Source of the DNA: a virus
IMG/VR virus record: IMGVR_UViG_3300033816_000303
Location: 1 to 26,830 of that record
DNA length: 26,830 bases
Reading direction: 5' to 3' (one strand)
Shown: piece after piece, positions 2,637 through 7,348 of the stretch
How positions within the stretch are numbered: the first letter of the stretch is position 1
How the letters are laid out: every line of letters begins with the position of its first letter
The notes under the pieces: model-generated
Seen by the model: only the letters and a program-made list of their open reading frames with translations
Database searches by the model: none
Told to the model about the DNA's origin: nothing
Translations under genes and position numbers: made by a program

Positions 2637-2882
2637 TTAGCCGCGAACGACACTCAAGGCGTTTATTAATTGGGTGGACAGTTCCATGTAAAACTTACCC
2701 TTATCAATATCTTGACCATTTGATTTCAAGGCAAGCTCTTTTATGTGTTCGTTCGCAAACCAAATTTCAGTCAATGAGTATTGCCTTTTATTGTTGGCAA
2801 TCTCATTCCAAAGATCGACCAACGATTGAAAGTCGTTCGTTGCGTCCGCGTCCTTAAGGATCTGTGTGATAGTCCTACTCAT
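2637..2882 (-). CDS. Small hypothetical helical protein
   Basis: This protein of about 81 residues starts MSRTITQILKDADATNDFQS. It appears almost wholly alpha-helical, with the blocks LVDLWNEIANNK, TEIWFANEHIKELALK and FYMELSTQLINALSVVRG. I chose the ATG at 2882 because it overlaps the exonuclease stop by 8 bp. A GTG at 2903 in the same frame would add seven residues and a much longer overlap. It follows the YqaJ-type exonuclease immediately and so may act with it, but no family was recognised. It is the last gene before the promoter at 2556-2587. Confidence 0.7.
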   Translation of the reverse strand: MSRTITQILKDADATNDFQSLVDLWNEIANNKRQYSLTEIWFANEHIKELALKSNGQDIDKGKFYMELSTQLINALSVVRG

Positions 2883-3561
2883 CACTCCCCTGAATTTCCC
2901 CACCCCCCAACGCCTCCATGTATTCGGAAACTGGCATCCCCGCTGACTTATCCTGATAGTCAGCGATCACCTTCTCAACATCGGCCTCGAATTTCTTAGC
3001 CGCCTGTTCGATCAGGGCGTGATAGGCGGGGTCTGCCTCTACGCGAACGACCTGCATCGGCATACCATTAGCGAACGAAATGAAGTCGCACCATTCGCGG
3101 CCCGTGACCCAGAGGCCAGTCTGAATTTGCGCGATATGTTCATTCGGAACCACCCCGCTCGCGATCCGTTCGACCTGAATCCTTGACTTGGCGGACTTGA
3201 TCTCAATGATGCCGTCACCGCCCACAAGACCATCGGGCGAATAACCCACAAGGAATCCCAAGCGGTCGTTCGTAACGAACCCACACTCCTTCACTGGGTA
3301 GTAGTGCAGCGCGTACAATTCACGCGCCCTCACCTCTTCCAATTGGCCGCGCATCATGTCGAAGGATTGGAATGTTTCATCGGTTCGGTTGTTGATCCGC
3401 TGTGCCGCAATCTCGTAAACGTGCGCCCTTACTTTGTCGTTGTCGGCCAACTTTCCCGTTGGCGTGATAAGCGTTTTGATGGCGGTCGTTGTCAGCACCC
3501 CGCGCCTGATAGCGTGCCATTCGGGGGTGCCTTGTTCGATGTCGAAGTGGTAGTGGGTCAT
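2875..3561 (-). CDS. YqaJ-type viral recombinase / lambda-exonuclease-like nuclease
   Basis: This 228-residue protein has the hallmarks of the PD-(D/E)XK YqaJ family, which degrades one strand of double-stranded DNA to feed homologous recombination. Visible motifs are EQGTPEWHAIRRGVLTTTAI near the N-terminus (residues 9-28), RGQLEE (71-76) carrying the first acidic residue, GYSPDG (106-111) with Asp110, and IEIKS (119-123) giving the E-x-K pair. QIQTGLWVTG (145-154) supplies the conserved Gln helix. The length is normal for the family. The start ATG at 3561 lies 7 nt after the -7-like box of array R1, so the mRNA is probably leaderless. The C-terminal 15 residues are Gly/Glu rich. Its expected annealing partner is not recognisable. 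Confidence 0.92.
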   Translation of the reverse strand: MTHYHFDIEQGTPEWHAIRRGVLTTTAIKTLITPTGKLADNDKVRAHVYEIAAQRINNRTDETFQSFDMMRGQLEEVRARELYALHYYPVKECGFVTNDRLGFLVGYSPDGLVGGDGIIEIKSAKSRIQVERIASGVVPNEHIAQIQTGLWVTGREWCDFISFANGMPMQVVRVEADPAYHALIEQAAKKFEADVEKVIADYQDKSAGMPVSEYMEALGGGEIQGSDE

Positions 3562-3568
3562 TGTTTGG

Positions 3569-3636
3569 CAAAGTTGTTTCGCGAACCGTGCCGCGACATT
3601 GAAATTGAATTAAAAGAGTATTGAAACGGGGTTAAA
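3569..3636 (-). promoter_or_regulatory. Array R1: four 11-bp phased hexamers plus -7-like box
   Basis: On the minus strand, hexamers begin at 3636 (TTTAAC), 3625 (TTCAAT), 3614 (TTTAAT) and 3603 (TTCAAT), each exactly 11 bp apart. The last begins 35 nt before the end of CAACTTTG (3576-3569), a degenerate Bacteroidota -7 box. The ATG of the exonuclease follows after 7 nt. The first unit overlaps the stop codon of the upstream 55-residue gene. Three other intergenic regions share this layout and spacing, which argues strongly for a common promoter class. Confidence 0.8.
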
Positions 3637-3799
3637 CTTTAGCCCTCAGTTCCTTATTATCCCCCTCGACCTTTTCCTCATCGATGAGCGCGATAATAGA
3701 CTTCCATTGCAGCCTGGGCACATGTCGCTTGAGCCTCAGATACGGCATCGGGCCTATCCTTTGCAGCGTTTCGAGGGCCGTTTTCTGTAGCGGTGTCAT
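3632..3799 (-). CDS. 55-residue winged-helix-like small protein
   Basis: This small ORF begins MTPLQKTALETLQRIGPMPY and ends EEKVEGDNKELRAKV. Its ATG overlaps the TGA of the upstream gene by 4 bp (ATGA), the same coupling used throughout this cluster, and its stop lies in the first unit of array R1. The pattern is helix (LQKTALETLQRIG), helix (YLRLKRHV), helix (LQWKSIIALIDEE), then a charged hairpin. This is typical of a minimal winged-helix DNA-binding domain. No family was recognised. A DNA-binding or regulatory role is inferred from predicted fold and from adjacency to the array. Confidence 0.65.
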   Translation of the reverse strand: MTPLQKTALETLQRIGPMPYLRLKRHVPRLQWKSIIALIDEEKVEGDNKELRAKV

Positions 3800-4014
3800 T
3801 GTATCTCCAGTTCGCTTGTAATGTTCTCAAGACCGAAAAGTATGTCGAACTCGCGCGTAACGTCTCTGTTACCGATCTTGACGGTGGTAATCGCTGCTGT
3901 TGACGGATCATCGCCACCCGCGTCAGTTGTGCCACGGTAGCGCGATATGACAGCGTTCACCTCTTTGGTGGTGCTGATGCCGTCAGGGGATGATATTTCG
4001 ATTGTTAGTGTCAT
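3796..4014 (-). CDS. Small hypothetical beta-rich protein
   Basis: This 72-residue protein begins MTLTIEISSPDGISTTKEVN. It has alternating strand-like segments (LTIEISSPDG, KEVNAVISRYRG, ITTVKIGNRDVTREFDILFG) and no membrane segment or cysteine. No family was recognised. It starts 12 nt after the upstream gene, and its stop overlaps the 55-residue gene by 4 bp. It belongs to the unit downstream of array R2 and is probably expressed with its neighbours. Confidence 0.65.
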   Translation of the reverse strand: MTLTIEISSPDGISTTKEVNAVISRYRGTTDAGGDDPSTAAITTVKIGNRDVTREFDILFGLENITSELEIQ

Positions 4015-4026
4015 GCGTTCGTGTTG

Positions 4027-4329
4027 TTACGCCTCCGATTCTGACCACCTTACTTCCATGACCCGCACTGCGCCCTCGACCTGAATGGTGTAGTTGTCGG
4101 CTATTCTGATGAACGTGCGATATGCGGGCGTTATCTGATCGGGTGCCTCGTGCCCCACGCCCAACGCTCGGCATATTTCGCCAAGTGCGGTGTCCGTTGT
4201 TGTGATCGTACGCAGGCACCTTTCGCCATTCGGCACGTTGTAGCCCGCATAGTGAATGATGCGCTCGGCAACGTCACGCCCTTCGGCTGTGGCGTATATG
4301 CCTGATCGGAGTTTGTCGGTGGTGGTCAT
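4027..4329 (-). CDS. Hypothetical protein in small-gene cluster
   Basis: This 100-residue protein begins MTTTDKLRSGIYATAEGRDV. The sequence suggests a helical N-terminal half (EGRDVAERIIHYAG, TALGEICRALGVG) and a beta-rich C-terminal third (TFIRIADNYTIQVEGAVRVM EVRW, split here for length). No family was recognised. It begins 3 nt downstream of the preceding stop codon and is followed after 12 nt by the next gene. Codon use and base composition match the rest of the phage, so it looks like a resident gene rather than a recent acquisition. Confidence 0.65.
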   Translation of the reverse strand: MTTTDKLRSGIYATAEGRDVAERIIHYAGYNVPNGERCLRTITTTDTALGEICRALGVGHEAPDQITPAYRTFIRIADNYTIQVEGAVRVMEVRWSESEA

Positions 4330-4332
4330 GGG

Positions 4333-4578
4333 TTAGGCGGGTATCACTTTTGCTACAACGTCTTTTGAACCCGTGTAGCTAACATCGTGAAGGTATTTTG
4401 ATGGTATGCTTGTAAACGCACCATTTTCATCCTTAACAATGTATCTGGTTCGCTCATAGGTCGCCACCCATTCAAGTGACGCTTTTGCCGCCCCTGCAAT
4501 TGTTTTGAATTGCCCAGTCACTGGCGATGCGATCATCGAAAATGAGGCGGAGCTTGGTTTTGCCTTAAACGTTTTCAT
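4333..4578 (-). CDS. Hypothetical protein, first gene after array R2
   Basis: This 81-residue basic protein begins MKTFKAKPSSASFSMIASPV. It contains TGQFKTIAGAAKASLEWVAT followed by RTRYIVKDENGAFTSIPSKY, which looks like a short helix-plus-beta-hairpin region able to contact nucleic acid. No family was recognised. The ATG at 4578 lies 25 nt after the -7-like box of array R2, so it would be the first gene of that transcript. It is followed by 4027-4329 after 3 nt. Confidence 0.65.
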   Translation of the reverse strand: MKTFKAKPSSASFSMIASPVTGQFKTIAGAAKASLEWVATYERTRYIVKDENGAFTSIPSKYLHDVSYTGSKDVVAKVIPA

Positions 4579-4603
4579 GTTTTCTGTCGTTTGGTTACGG
4601 GGT

Positions 4604-4660
4604 CAAATATCCCCCGCCAAAACAGGCGCGACATTAAAACGGAATGAAAATGTGATTAAA
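4604..4660 (-). promoter_or_regulatory. Array R2: three 11-bp phased hexamers plus -7-like box
   Basis: On the minus strand, hexamers begin at 4660 (TTTAAT), 4649 (TTTCAT) and 4638 (TTTAAT), 11 bp apart. The last begins 35 nt before the end of GATATTTG (4611-4604). The next ATG (4578) follows after 25 nt, so unlike the other arrays this one leaves room for a leader. The array fills most of the gap between genes ending at 4670 and starting at 4578. Confidence 0.8.
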
Positions 4661-4669
4661 ATGCAGGGG

Positions 4670-4903
4670 CTACTTGCCCTCTAATATGGTCAGGCGGTTC
4701 TCCAATACCTCAATCTGCTTTGCCTGAGTGAGACACACACCTTCCAATATCTTGACCCGTGCGCGAAGTGTTGACCTGTTCTGAATAGCCTCGGTAATCA
4801 ATCTAAGCACCAATTCTGCACCGTTGAATATCAGTTGAAACGGTATCGGGTTGCCGTTTGACAGGTTCTCAGCGGCCTGTTTCTGAAGTGCGGTGTTGCT
4901 CAT
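4670..4903 (-). CDS. Small coiled-coil protein
   Basis: This 77-residue protein begins MSNTALQKQAAENLSNGNPI. The C-terminal half is a clear heptad pattern (LRARVKILEGVCLTQAKQIE, then VLENRLTILEG), predicting a dimeric coiled coil. A hydrophobic helix, IFNGAELVLRLITEAIQ, precedes it. I chose the ATG at 4903 because it overlaps the upstream stop by 4 bp (ATGA). An ATG at 4915 would add four residues. No family was recognised. It could be a multimerising regulatory or structural accessory protein. It is the last gene before array R2. Confidence 0.65.
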   Translation of the reverse strand: MSNTALQKQAAENLSNGNPIPFQLIFNGAELVLRLITEAIQNRSTLRARVKILEGVCLTQAKQIEVLENRLTILEGK

Positions 4904-5088
4904 TTCTCTTTCCAATTTTCGTCAATATCGTCAATATGGTATGCGTTCCACGTGTCGTCAGGGTAATCGACCACCACTGTTATGCCGTTGAAACCAGCAA
5001 CGACACACTCGTTGCCATTCGGATCAATCAGGTGTTTGCCTACGTGTAGGGTCATGCGCTCACGCTTTCCTGTGCGTTGATTGCTCAT
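4900..5088 (-). CDS. Small SH3/KOW-like hypothetical protein
   Basis: This 62-residue protein begins MSNQRTGKRERMTLHVGKHL. Residues 12-60 have the pattern of a small beta barrel (LHVGKHLIDPNGNECVVAGF, NGITVVVDYPDDTW, NAYHIDDID) like SH3 or KOW folds. No specific family was identified. Both its start and its stop overlap neighbouring genes by 4 bp, consistent with tight translational coupling. A second ATG (residue 12) is also possible as start. Function is unknown. Confidence 0.65.
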   Translation of the reverse strand: MSNQRTGKRERMTLHVGKHLIDPNGNECVVAGFNGITVVVDYPDDTWNAYHIDDIDENWKEK

Positions 5089-5378
5089 TTCTTCGTATTG
5101 TATTCGCGAACCTCTCCAGTATTCGGGTCGGTCACAATCGTGTTAAGGTGGTCGTGTTTCCCATCGTCAACCCAAATCATGTGACCAGGAGCAACATGAT
5201 AGTTGGGCAGGTCTTTCAATTCGTGGTTCATTTCCTTGAGTTTCTCAACTACGGCAATGTGGTACTTGAGCCAAATGCACAGATCAACCGCAAGCCGATC
5301 GACATTCTCAGGTGTTGCGACATTGATAAGCCGCTCGAACGAATCGATGCGGTATTCTTTTGGCTTCTTTTTGCTCAT
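5085..5378 (-). CDS. Hypothetical protein downstream of endolysin
   Basis: This 97-residue charged protein begins MSKKKPKEYRIDSFERLINV. It has a long helix around residues 25-55 (NVDRLAVDLCIWLKYHIAVV, EKLKEMNHEL) and a C-terminal beta region (GHMIWVDDGKHDHLNTIVTD, PNTGEVREY). Its ATG overlaps the endolysin stop by 4 bp and its stop overlaps the next gene by 4 bp. No family was recognised. Position links it to the lysis end of the operon, but nothing in the sequence indicates a lysis function: there is no signal peptide and no membrane helix. Confidence 0.65.
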   Translation of the reverse strand: MSKKKPKEYRIDSFERLINVATPENVDRLAVDLCIWLKYHIAVVEKLKEMNHELKDLPNYHVAPGHMIWVDDGKHDHLNTIVTDPNTGEVREYNTKK

Positions 5379-5821
5379 GGCTTAACAATCACGATCTTGT
5401 TGACGTTGTTCGGGCCTGTGTCCTTTGAGTCCATGTGGAGCCAGCCAAAGTAGGGGCCTGTACTGCGCGAAGTGTAGGCAATGTCCTCAACCCTTCTAAT
5501 TCCCATTGCGTATGCCTCAATGGGGTGCGATATGATCCACTCAAACACCTTGCGAGGCGTTACGCCTTTGGTCAGGAATTTCAGATCAAATGCGGCCCCC
5601 GTTTTGTGCATCGAGTACTTCGCGCCCGTTGCCGTATCCGACCGCCTCAATCCGCTTTCGGTGTAGCCACGCCCGTTGATAAGGATCGGGCCGAACTTGT
5701 CGCGCAGGGCATCGATGGCACGTAGCGCGTTCGGATCGAGCATGGCCCAACATTCGTCCTCTGTGTGGTTGGCAAGGAACCACGGGTCAACGAGTTCGGG
5801 AAGGGTGAAGTGTTTGGTCAT
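5375..5821 (-). CDS. Endolysin, peptidase M15-like (D-Ala-D-Ala carboxypeptidase fold)
   Basis: This 148-residue protein carries the zinc-peptidase signature SMHKTGAAFDL (residues 70-80), matching SxHxxGxAxD with His72 and Asp79. WLHMD (127-131) supplies the second histidine (His129). The upstream ILINGRGYTESGLRRS segment is the typical substrate-side arginine region. Its role is cleavage of peptide cross-links in host peptidoglycan at the end of infection. It has no signal peptide, so it should depend on the holin-like protein at 6542-6811 for release. Its ATG overlaps the previous stop by 4 bp. The length is normal for compact phage M15 enzymes. Confidence 0.9.
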   Translation of the reverse strand: MTKHFTLPELVDPWFLANHTEDECWAMLDPNALRAIDALRDKFGPILINGRGYTESGLRRSDTATGAKYSMHKTGAAFDLKFLTKGVTPRKVFEWIISHPIEAYAMGIRRVEDIAYTSRSTGPYFGWLHMDSKDTGPNNVNKIVIVKP

Positions 5822-6252
5822 CCTATCAGTCTAATCAGGTTCAACAGGTCGGTGTAGGTCTTGATGCCGTTAAATTCACAATCTTCTATCCACACCGAAA
5901 TCAAATCGTGGCGGATAATTACTTCAATCGTGTTGTGGGTGTAAACGAGACTGTTCGTTTTGTTTCCAAACCCATCCTCAATCAGTCTCCAAGGCACTAT
6001 ATGGTCGTGCATTAGATCAACATGCTGATGAATCTTGATCTCTTTTCTCAGTGCCATTTTAGGCTTGTGGTAGTCTAATCGCCCGAATATCAGCACCGAA
6101 CCGTCAACAATATAGGCCAAATCATAATTAAGTTCTACGAAACGGCTCGGCCTGTCTGGTAAGTTTGGATTAGCTGATATAATATCGGCCCACTCCGCCT
6201 CTGTTGTCGGCCTGCAATACGACTGCTCAAGCCTTTCCGTTGTTGATTTCAT
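5818..6252 (-). CDS. Hypothetical protein in lysis cluster
   Basis: This 144-residue protein begins MKSTTERLEQSYCRPTTEAE. It contains beta-rich segments (FVELNYDLAYIVDGSVLIFG, NSLVYTHNTIEVIIRHDLIS) and histidines within KIHQHVDLMHDHIVPW that could bind metal. No catalytic signature was recognised. It sits between the basic 59-residue protein and the endolysin and overlaps each by 4 bp. The local sequence is more AT-rich than the surrounding genes, which may indicate a more recent acquisition. Function is unknown. Confidence 0.65.
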   Translation of the reverse strand: MKSTTERLEQSYCRPTTEAEWADIISANPNLPDRPSRFVELNYDLAYIVDGSVLIFGRLDYHKPKMALRKEIKIHQHVDLMHDHIVPWRLIEDGFGNKTNSLVYTHNTIEVIIRHDLISVWIEDCEFNGIKTYTDLLNLIRLIG

Positions 6253-6428
6253 CCCCTCCGATGTTTGCGTTTGGTGGCCTTAGAAATGTGCAGGCGGTTG
6301 CTCTTTTTCTTGCGCTGTTTGGCGGTCAGGTTGTATCGGCCAGTATTGCGGGGTGGCGTATATACGCCTGTGTAGCGGGTCAGCGTAAAAGCCTCCGCCA
6401 TTGATACAAGTGCTGCGAGTGTTTTCAT
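6249..6428 (-). CDS. Small strongly basic protein, probably leaderless
   Basis: This 59-residue protein begins MKTLAALVSMAEAFTLTRYT and ends in a highly basic tail (KQRKKKSNRLHISKATKRKH). I chose the ATG at 6428 because it lies 5 nt downstream of the -7-like box of array R3. A GTG five codons upstream (6443) falls before the predicted transcription start. Its stop overlaps the next gene by 4 bp. The basic C-terminus suggests nucleic-acid or membrane-phosphate binding. The N-terminal hydrophobic helix is short for a transmembrane segment. No family was recognised. Confidence 0.6.
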   Translation of the reverse strand: MKTLAALVSMAEAFTLTRYTGVYTPPRNTGRYNLTAKQRKKKSNRLHISKATKRKHRRG

Positions 6429-6433
6429 GCCGC

Positions 6434-6479
6434 CAAATTTCACCCCTAAAACGGCACCGACAATTAAAACGAGATTAAA
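6434..6479 (-). promoter_or_regulatory. Array R3: two 11-bp phased hexamers plus -7-like box
   Basis: On the minus strand, TTTAAT hexamers begin at 6479 and 6468, 11 bp apart. The second begins 35 nt before the end of GAAATTTG (6441-6434). A TTG at 6463-6461, directly after the second hexamer, sits 19 nt from the -7 box, so this promoter also has a reasonable host-type -33 element. The ATG of the basic 59-residue gene follows after 5 nt. The remaining gap (6480-6541) holds no gene that I can see. Confidence 0.8.
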
Positions 6480-6541
6480 CCTTGCCCTGCCCGCGATATT
6501 TCTTTTCGGGTGGGTTGTTCTTTGAGTGAACGCCTGCCCGC

Positions 6542-6811
6542 TTACGCTTCGGGCGCGGCTTGTGCTGTGTTGCGTTGGTCTTTGTCACGGCTTGATTTCG
6601 ATGATCCAAAGTAGTAATTCAATACCGTTCCGAAAGCGGTCAGCAATGCGCCTAATGCGATGTTCACGAGGTCGTGCGAGCTGTCGGGTATGGGTGCGTA
6701 GAACAACAGGAACACGAGCGCAAACGTGCCAGTAATAACGGCAAAAGCTAACAGCCCCATGAACACGTTTCGGCCCTGCATCGTGGCCGCTAATTTAGTC
6801 AGAAAGGGCAA
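6542..6811 (-). CDS. Holin-like small membrane protein
   Basis: This protein has up to 89 residues and two predicted transmembrane helices: VFMGLLAFAVITGTFALVFL (about residues 16-35) and NIALGALLTAFGTVLNYYFG (about 50-69). A short PIPDSSHDL loop separates them, and a charged tail (SSKSSRDKDQRN) follows. This layout and the YYFGSS ending match small holin-type proteins common next to endolysins in Bacteroidota phages. Its expected role is to permeabilise the inner membrane and time lysis. The longest frame starts at a TTG (6811) and overlaps the truncated gene upstream. An ATG at 6781 (MQGRNVFMGL) gives a 79-residue version. Confidence 0.75.
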   Translation of the reverse strand: MPFLTKLAATMQGRNVFMGLLAFAVITGTFALVFLLFYAPIPDSSHDLVNIALGALLTAFGTVLNYYFGSSKSSRDKDQRNTAQAAPEA

Positions 6812-6987
6812 TATCTGTCGTCTATCTTAACGAGTAGCGGTCTGAGCGATTTGTACGACATGAACCGACTGCGCCTTTTATTTGCCACTTTAAGGCGTAT
6901 GTTGTTGATAGCGTGGTGGTCATGCTTTAGTTGTGTTGCGCGTATTCGGGAGTTAGCGAGAATGATTAATCCATGCCAACAATATGT
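6799..6987 (-). pseudogene. 5'-truncated remnant of a small phage gene
   Basis: An open frame of 62 codons ends at a TGA (6801-6799) next to the holin-like gene. It contains a protein-like stretch with no acceptable start: NSRIRATQLKHDHHAINNIR, then LKVANKRRSRFMSYKSLRPL, then LVKIDDRYCPF. It resembles the C-terminal part of short basic, helical proteins that often precede the holin in Bacteroidota phages. The frame begins at a TAG (6990-6988) inside the low-GC gene 6953-7180, and no ATG, GTG or TTG occurs before residue about 33. The simplest reading is that the low-GC gene was inserted into, or replaced, its 5' half. Confidence 0.6.
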
Positions 6988-7180
6988 CTATTTGGTCTTT
7001 GTTTAATATAAAAGTATTATTTTCTCCATCGTCAATACCAATTTCAATATCACCATCTTTGTAATTAAAAAATGACAATTCTTTGGTTCTGCCTCTGAAT
7101 AACAAATCACTCTCGCTAACACAGGCTATATGCAATGCCTGTTTAGTGCTATCATCTAAGTTTATTATATCTTCAATCAT
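6953..7180 (-). CDS. Low-GC 75-residue acidic protein, likely acquired cassette
   Basis: This 75-residue protein begins MIEDIINLDDSTKQALHIAC and ends ILLAWINHSR. It is acidic, with a beta-rich middle (LSFFNYKDGDIEIGIDDGEN). The gene is markedly more AT-rich than every neighbour, uses AT-ending codons, and is preceded by a palindrome (7219-7244) and two CTTGCAC direct repeats. Its 3' end overlaps the truncated frame 6799-6987 in a different reading frame. No family was recognised. Composition and context point to a gene recently acquired from another source, possibly an accessory (morally optional) cargo gene. What it does cannot be read from the sequence. Confidence 0.65.
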   Translation of the reverse strand: MIEDIINLDDSTKQALHIACVSESDLLFRGRTKELSFFNYKDGDIEIGIDDGENNTFILNKDQIDILLAWINHSR

Positions 7181-7192
7181 TTATGCAATTTA

Positions 7193-7297
7193 TTAAGTTA
7201 GTGCAAGTTTTACGGCACTGCACATAGCCAAACCGTTATGTGCAAGCACTACAACCGTACCTCCGTCTTTGCCGTTGTTATTCCGCCTCGTTCCCAT
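7193..7297 (-). other. Short ORF at array R4, possible 5' fragment of the disrupted gene
   Basis: The ATG at 7297 lies 5 nt after the -7-like box of array R4, so it should be the first start codon of a leaderless transcript. It opens a 34-codon ORF beginning MGTRRNNNGKDGGTVVVLAH. The last half runs through the palindrome at 7219-7244 and looks non-protein-like. I interpret the first 15 or so codons as the original 5' end of the gene whose 3' half survives at 6799-6987. The rest would be foreign sequence. This is an inference from layout; no homologue was recognised. Confidence 0.4.
7201..7246 (-). repeat. Palindrome with flanking direct repeats beside the low-GC gene
   Basis: A perfect 8-bp inverted repeat, TGCACATA and TATGTGCA (7219-7226 and 7237-7244), is separated by a 10-nt loop. 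On the minus strand the heptamer CTTGCAC occurs at 7246-7240 and again at 7207-7201, just outside or overlapping the dyad. The element lies between the short ORF at R4 and the start of the low-GC gene. It could be a cassette boundary or recombination site, or a transcription hairpin. There is no T-tract, so it is not an intrinsic terminator. Confidence 0.55.
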
Positions 7298-7302
7298 CAC
7301 CG

Positions 7303-7348
7303 CAAAGGAAAAGCGGAAAATGGCGCGCGAAATGAAGATGAGATTAAA
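7303..7348 (-). promoter_or_regulatory. Array R4: two 11-bp phased hexamers plus -7-like box
   Basis: On the minus strand, hexamers begin at 7348 (TTTAAT) and 7337 (CTTCAT), 11 bp apart. The second begins 35 nt before the end of TTCCTTTG (7310-7303), the weakest -7 box of the four. An ATG (7297) follows after 5 nt. The array starts just after the stop codon of the coiled-coil membrane protein gene (7351). The remaining gap to 7180 holds the short ORF and palindrome described separately. Confidence 0.75.

Follow-up and report, generated by a model that had tools for sequence, protein, structure and literature searches.

Promoters read by the sigma factor of Bacteroidota carry a TAnnTTTG motif at -7 and a TTG at -33. 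Here, we consider four arrays of phased hexamers, each followed by a -7-like box, in the virus record IMGVR_UViG_3300033816_000303, whose 26,830 bases constitute the window analysed and whose array-bearing genes are on the minus strand. Among described systems, the closest counterparts of these arrays are the operators of PmrA and of the Pho regulators. PmrA boxes consist of CTTAAG and XTTAAT half-sites that are 5 base pairs (bp) apart and are bound head to tail (PMC3973317). In cyanobacterial Pho boxes, 8-bp CTTAACCT-like repeats are joined by 3-bp linkers, and the PhoB boxes of E. coli end 10 bp before the -10 element (PMC1906773). Host PhoB binds promoters of cyanophage S-PM2d in gel shifts, and cyanophage genes are described as being under the control of host PhoB/SphR in a part of the same source that cites Zeng and Chisholm (2012); its authors caution, however, that predicted Pho boxes in phages are unreliable (PMC10976474).

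The four arrays, named A1 to A4, are all intergenic, lie on the gene strand and directly precede a start codon (Table 1). The preliminary description of this DNA had reported them with steps of 11 bp and a fixed distance to a TTTG box. All positions were found again on the minus strand, and the distance is exact: from the start of the final hexamer to the G of TTTG, 35 nucleotides (nt, inclusive) are counted in each array. The hexamers had also been called TTYAAT-like; two of them are degenerate, the hexamer at 4649 with one departure from this consensus and that at 7337 with two. The degeneracy attributed to the -7 boxes is real. TTTG is present at the right place in the four boxes, as in a Bacteroidota promoter, whereas the TA of TAnnTTTG is present in none, and the -33 position reads AATG, AATG, AATT and CATT in A1 to A4, respectively, with neither TTG nor TTTG. 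The lack of TA and of a clear -33 TTG suggests that these promoters depend on an activator.

Table 1. Arrays, -7-like boxes and adjoining genes in the window (ORF, open reading frame; aa, amino acids; pLDDT, predicted local distance difference test).
Feature	Positions	Strand	Supporting data
Array A1: TTTAAC(3636) TTCAAT(3625) TTTAAT(3614) TTCAAT(3603), 11-bp period	3598..3636	-	
-7-like box of A1, CAACTTTG, 7 nt before ATG of YqaJ exonuclease	3569..3576	-	
Array A2: TTTAAT(4660) TTTCAT(4649) TTTAAT(4638)	4633..4660	-	
-7-like box of A2, GATATTTG, 25 nt before ATG at 4578 (81-aa ORF 4333-4578)	4604..4611	-	
Array A3: TTTAAT(6479) TTTAAT(6468)	6463..6479	-	
-7-like box of A3, GAAATTTG, 5 nt before ATG at 6428 (59-aa ORF 6249-6428)	6434..6441	-	
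Array A4: TTTAAT(7348) CTTCAT(7337)	7332..7348	-	
-7-like box of A4, TTCCTTTG, 5 nt before ATG at 7297 (34-aa ORF 7193-7297)	7303..7310	-	
Wh55, 55-aa predicted winged-helix protein; stop codon overlaps first A1 hexamer	3632..3799	-	AlphaFold2 pLDDT 76, H-H-H-E-E order
YqaJ/RecE-like exonuclease gene, downstream of A1	2875..3561	-	Pfam PF09588 E 9.4e-13; phrog_149 E 6.1e-31

On the gene strand of the window, five exact TTYAAY pairs have a distance of 11 and three a distance of 22, and no other distance between 6 and 33 is found more than once; the opposite strand has none at 11. A strict search for an array with TTTG at 35 nt found three instances, whereas 200 dinucleotide shuffles gave 0.005 on average, and other TTTG offsets from 20 to 59 gave none, except for one at 21. 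A4 is not counted by this search because CTTCAT breaks the strict hexamer rule. The occurrence of phased arrays at a fixed distance is thus confirmed and is not due to chance.

The same phage carries a fifth array outside the window. The window is 100% identical to parts of a longer record, IMGVR_UViG_3300044858_002079 (G001, 34,804 bases), where, on the minus strand at G001:21753, TTTAAT CACAT TTTAAT CCGTT TTTAAT precedes a 141-aa ORF; its box is CACCTTTA, with TTTA at the 35-nt spot. Close relatives (L017, L019, L076, L119, L336 and L337) contain orthologs of A1 to A5 plus three further array families. Each of the eight families has at least two hexamers and a [CT]TT[AG] (YTTR) box at exactly 35 nt, and L076 alone has six arrays with such a box at this distance. 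A1 is kept in L017, L119 and L076, A2 in L337, L076 and L019, and A3 in L076; in the L076 ortholog of A4, TTTCAT stands where the window has CTTCAT (7337). In L019, the ortholog of A1 (L019:2985) has lost exactly 22 bp, that is two repeats, with the phase kept, and the 35-nt box has gone after a gene change. This case suggests that arrays can contract in whole repeat steps. Among orthologs, the variable columns amount to 6 of 96 in the hexamers (6%), 10 of 50 in the spacers (20%), 32 of 126 between hexamer and box (25%), 1 of 24 in TTTG (4%) and 5 of 24 in the four bases preceding it. Hexamers are less variable than the spacers and the hexamer-to-box stretch taken together (P=2e-4). The expectation of similar arrays in related phages is therefore borne out for close relatives but not for distant ones found by their helicase (55-69% identity; L338-L376), which have no arrays, so that deep conservation cannot be claimed.

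The 35-nt geometry also occurs in an unrelated phage (record L058, G014), where two arrays are followed at this distance by the boxes TATATTTG and TATATTTA. Conserved hexamers and TTTG, drifting spacers and a geometry kept in related phages and in this unrelated one lend support to the early suggestion that an activator, bound in phase with the helix, acts on promoters with degenerate -7 boxes. In many marine contigs, TTTAAC-N5 arrays are separated from TATATTTG by 21-22 or 31-33 nt, two settings that lie one helical turn apart (examples are L149, L182, L196, L203 and L142, several contigs having two arrays). The TTTAAC-array pattern gave one match in five host genomes, and host counterparts of these marine phage arrays are not established. 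The first pattern scan of viral sequences returned mostly AT-rich chance matches, with only L017, L057, L058, L076 and L119 being informative. Low-complexity 11-bp repeats of a different kind, of the form CGCGTTTTAAT / CGCGTCTCAAT, were seen at L050:1313, L051:3007 and L081:5942 and 2174. There is as yet no cultured system, because the named phages Flavobacterium phage lotta8-1, Cellulophaga phi46:1 and Nonlabens P12024L showed no convincing arrays and a blastn search with one marine array region matched no isolate.

The arrays had been proposed to form a phage-specific promoter class. This part of the proposal does not stand, since bacterial chromosomal promoters share the array and its exact spacing. 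Genomes of 84,980 species were scanned with the pattern TTTAAY-N5-TTYAAY-N5-TTYAAY-N{16,26}-TANNTTTG, in which spacer letters and gap were left free; the counts given here and in the next paragraph are among the matches listed. Gaps of 16 to 26 were represented 2, 6, 4, 3, 7, 80, 7, 3, 2, 4 and 3 times. The single peak, at gap 21, corresponds to the 35 nt of the phage, with 80 matches against about 4 at each neighbouring spacing. Nearly all gap-21 matches are from Bacteroidota, among them Pedobacter, Pontibacter, Hymenobacter and Adhaeribacter. These host arrays carry the full TAnnTTTG, and in 70 of the 80 a fourth hexamer, one step nearer the box, ends 10 bp before it, the distance at which the E. 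coli PhoB boxes end.

An OmpR-type response-regulator signature lies within 4 kb of 49 of the 80 gap-21 matches, as opposed to 1 of 41 at other gaps (P=2e-11). The usual gene order is regulator, kinase, array, target, the targets being TolC-type efflux genes in 36 cases and SulP transporter genes in 25; in two cases the array is followed by TatA, with the regulator next. One Pedobacter contig (G008:C23) has two arrays 2.3 kb apart, one before TatA and the regulator and the other before TolC, as would be expected for autoregulation. The host regulators are full-length proteins of the OmpR/PhoB type whose nearest NCBI model is that of the heavy-metal regulators CzcR/SilR/CopR, with scores below the model cut-off. 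Besides the main contexts, 17 others are found at gap 21, where about 4 would be expected. The predicted promoter class thus also exists on Bacteroidota chromosomes, where it goes with OmpR-type two-component systems.

The agreement between phage and host arrays extends to the individual positions of their spacers, as if both were read in the same way. In the first spacer, hosts have C-Y-S-W-T and phages C-N-C-R-T, and T-T-C-G-N after the second host hexamer corresponds to K-T-C-G-C after the last phage hexamer. None of 20,000 within-spacer shuffles scored as well as the phage spacers against the matching host spacer, and there was no fit to the wrong spacer; because the shared ancestry of the phage arrays shrinks the effective sample, the resulting P value is indicative only. 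The spacers played no part in the search that located the host sites.

Taken together, these data lead us to favour, with moderate confidence, the view that the arrays are operators for a response regulator of the OmpR/PhoB family, the host being its likeliest source, that activates weak -7 promoters. This view rests on the OmpR/PhoB regulators that adjoin the bacterial arrays, on the agreement of the spacers and on the YTTAAY-N5 pattern, which is the known format of PmrA and Pho sites. Several traits of such operators are found here: tandem direct repeats with an 11-bp period, YTTAAY-type half-sites that 5-bp spacers separate (with TTCAAT and TTTCAT as further variants), a helical position that is constant with respect to the core promoter and linkage to response-regulator genes in bacteria. 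As in phages whose genes are controlled by a host two-component system, the phage has no regulator copy of its own. The DNA-binding domain Trans_reg_C (PF00486) had no match in the complete genome G001 or in 15 other array phages, searches of the small ORFs against Pfam and PHROGs gave no strong regulator, and an Rfam search of the window gave no match. As to the mechanism, head-to-tail half-sites would hold a winged-helix protein of the OmpR/PhoB family one helical turn upstream of a weak TTTG promoter, the -7 box of which would be read by the Bacteroidota housekeeping sigma factor. Upon infection, the host holoenzyme alone would use these boxes poorly, as they have neither TA nor a -33 TTG. 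Regulator molecules on the 2-4 half-sites, aligned on one face of the DNA and ending one turn upstream of the box, would contact or position the polymerase and turn on the operon for exonuclease and replication, together with several operons of small genes. The regulator would be a host protein resembling CusR, QseB or PmrA, a protein with the same arrays in its own Bacteroidota operons. In this scheme, we infer binding, activation rather than repression, the identity of the regulator and the position of the start site.

The likeness to described operators has its limits. The PmrA (BasR) box of enterobacteria shares with the phage arrays head-to-tail half-sites of the YTTAAT type, a 5-bp separation and an 11-bp period, but has two half-sites instead of 2-4; moreover, the phage arrays belong to phage promoters and keep a constant 35 nt to a -7 box of the Bacteroidota type. 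Cyanobacterial and cyanophage Pho boxes likewise have YTTAAY repeats with an 11-bp period, and cyanophages offer the precedent of phage genes controlled by a host two-component system, as is proposed here on sequence grounds. However, the phylum is different, the host context is efflux and SulP transport, not phosphate, and the arrays serve exonuclease and small-gene operons. A limited literature search found no report of a binding site for the OmpR-type regulator family of Bacteroidota, and nothing usable on response-regulator motifs or phage promoter motifs in this phylum.

Several observations weigh against a host response regulator. Most host matches derive from two orthologous promoters, so that the 80 are not independent events. 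Of 395 genomes sampled evenly across the phylum, only 2 have the strict array pattern; a given host may therefore lack the cognate regulator. The further hexamer at 24 nt, found in 70 of the 80 host arrays listed, is absent from the phage arrays. Finally, homologs of Wh55, the predicted winged-helix protein encoded next to A1, are confined to the array-bearing clade (L017, L119, L019, L076, L337 and G001). The arrays could then be operators of a phage-encoded regulator, of which Wh55 is the best candidate, binding the repeats as activator or repressor and encoded in an operon that would itself be array-driven (autoregulation). The logic would be that of the T4 middle promoters, where a phage activator bound near -30 replaces the -35 contact (MotA/AsiA). 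In structure, Wh55 weakly resembles MarR-like proteins and the activation domain of T4 MotA (best E 0.06), and in L076 and L337 an array stands directly before the gene preceding wh55. In contrast to T4, no AsiA-like protein was seen, the sites are repeated where T4 has one MotA box, and there is no sequence homology. Moreover, Wh55 is absent from the unrelated array phages (the L058 record and the marine contigs), its co-occurrence with arrays in a single lineage counts as one event, and it leaves unexplained why arrays next to two-component systems of bacteria, which do without any phage protein, have the same geometry and prefer the same spacers. We therefore rank the response regulator first and Wh55, which we regard as doubtful, second.

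Other explanations dispense with an activator of this kind. A phage sigma-like factor could read the last hexamer as a -35 element, with the upstream hexamers as accessories. The phage does encode a 148-aa protein (G001, L131:2529-2975, minus strand, outside the window) that matches TIGR02989 (E 9e-9) and TIGR02937 (E 1.9e-5), and ORFs weakly similar to Sigma70_r2, under the Pfam cut-off, are present in 9 of 11 marine array records tested. Yet a single sigma factor needs no 2-4 phased repeats, TTTG is the box that belongs to the housekeeping sigma of the host, the marine gaps of 21/22 and 31-33 do not suit a fixed -35/-10 spacing, host arrays adjoin response regulators, and L347 has a homolog of the sigma-like protein (27.5% identity) but no arrays. 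We consider this explanation improbable. Slightly lower still we place the idea that no dedicated protein is involved, the arrays being contacted, as UP-element-like or curved DNA, by the RNA polymerase alpha subunit. Their AT-richness, 11-bp phasing and location directly upstream of the core promoter would suit such a role, but the hexamer is specific and has an internal TpA step unlike an A-tract, the spacers contain GC at defined positions common to host arrays, and arrays of the strict form are both uncommon in the phylum and linked to genes of response regulators. Least probable of all, and very much so, is that the arrays are not promoter elements but replication-origin iterons or chance repeats. 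That the phage encodes a DnaA-C-like protein (PF08299, E 7.6e-18) might be cited for iterons. Against this explanation stand the presence of five or more scattered sites, each on the gene strand ahead of a start codon and with its box at one distance, the dissimilarity of the hexamer to a DnaA box, the rarity of such arrays in shuffled sequence and the conservation of hexamers and TTTG.

With a response regulator as the favoured activator, two features of the targets deserve comment. At A1, A3 and A4, TTTG and ATG are separated by 5-7 nt (3562-3568, 6429-6433 and 7298-7302), a spacing that is 4-6 nt in many Pedobacter TolC promoters. Therefore, the corresponding mRNAs may be leaderless or nearly so. 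In addition, a middle or late promoter class had been suggested. The arrays precede operons for recombination (exonuclease)/replication and for small genes, whereas the structural module has none, and this speaks against a late class. Early or middle expression driven by a factor already in the cell would fit these targets.

As regards the phage itself, the ends of G001 are repeated over 120 bases, which indicates a circular genome of 34,684 bp, and the window is a permuted part of it (L130+L131). About 8 kb of G001 are missing from the window record, including primase/helicase, VRR-NUC, sigma-like and glycosyltransferase genes. Judging by matches to portal (phrog_33693), terminase (phrog_5653) and YqaJ exonuclease, the virus is a tailed phage. 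A Bacteroidota host is indicated by DUF3127 and BT4734-like domains, by the type of the -7 box and by the relatives that the virus has among phages of Flavobacterium and Nonlabens. The gene of the 148-aa sigma-70-like protein is upstream of glycosyltransferase and terminase genes, and the protein is a candidate late-gene regulator. The DnaA-C-like protein (124 aa; G001, L131:3285-3659, minus strand, outside the window) consists of the DnaA C-terminal domain without an ATPase part and possibly has a replication or regulatory role.

Promoter control in Bacteroidota phages has been little studied, and the arrays offer a concrete, testable class that can be read by eye and that is common to phages and to efflux/transporter operons located beside two-component systems. 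They also provide a proposed site at which a family of OmpR-type regulators of Bacteroidota would bind. Tentatively, an efflux/heavy-metal type of two-component system in the host could control much of the replication and small-gene programme of this phage, with infection gated by host stress, and the same might apply to unrelated Bacteroidota phages that have this promoter geometry. If the regulator is indeed that of the host, the expression of phage genes would be tied to envelope or metal stress signals of the host, a dependence on host signals that has so far been shown for cyanophages under phosphate limitation.

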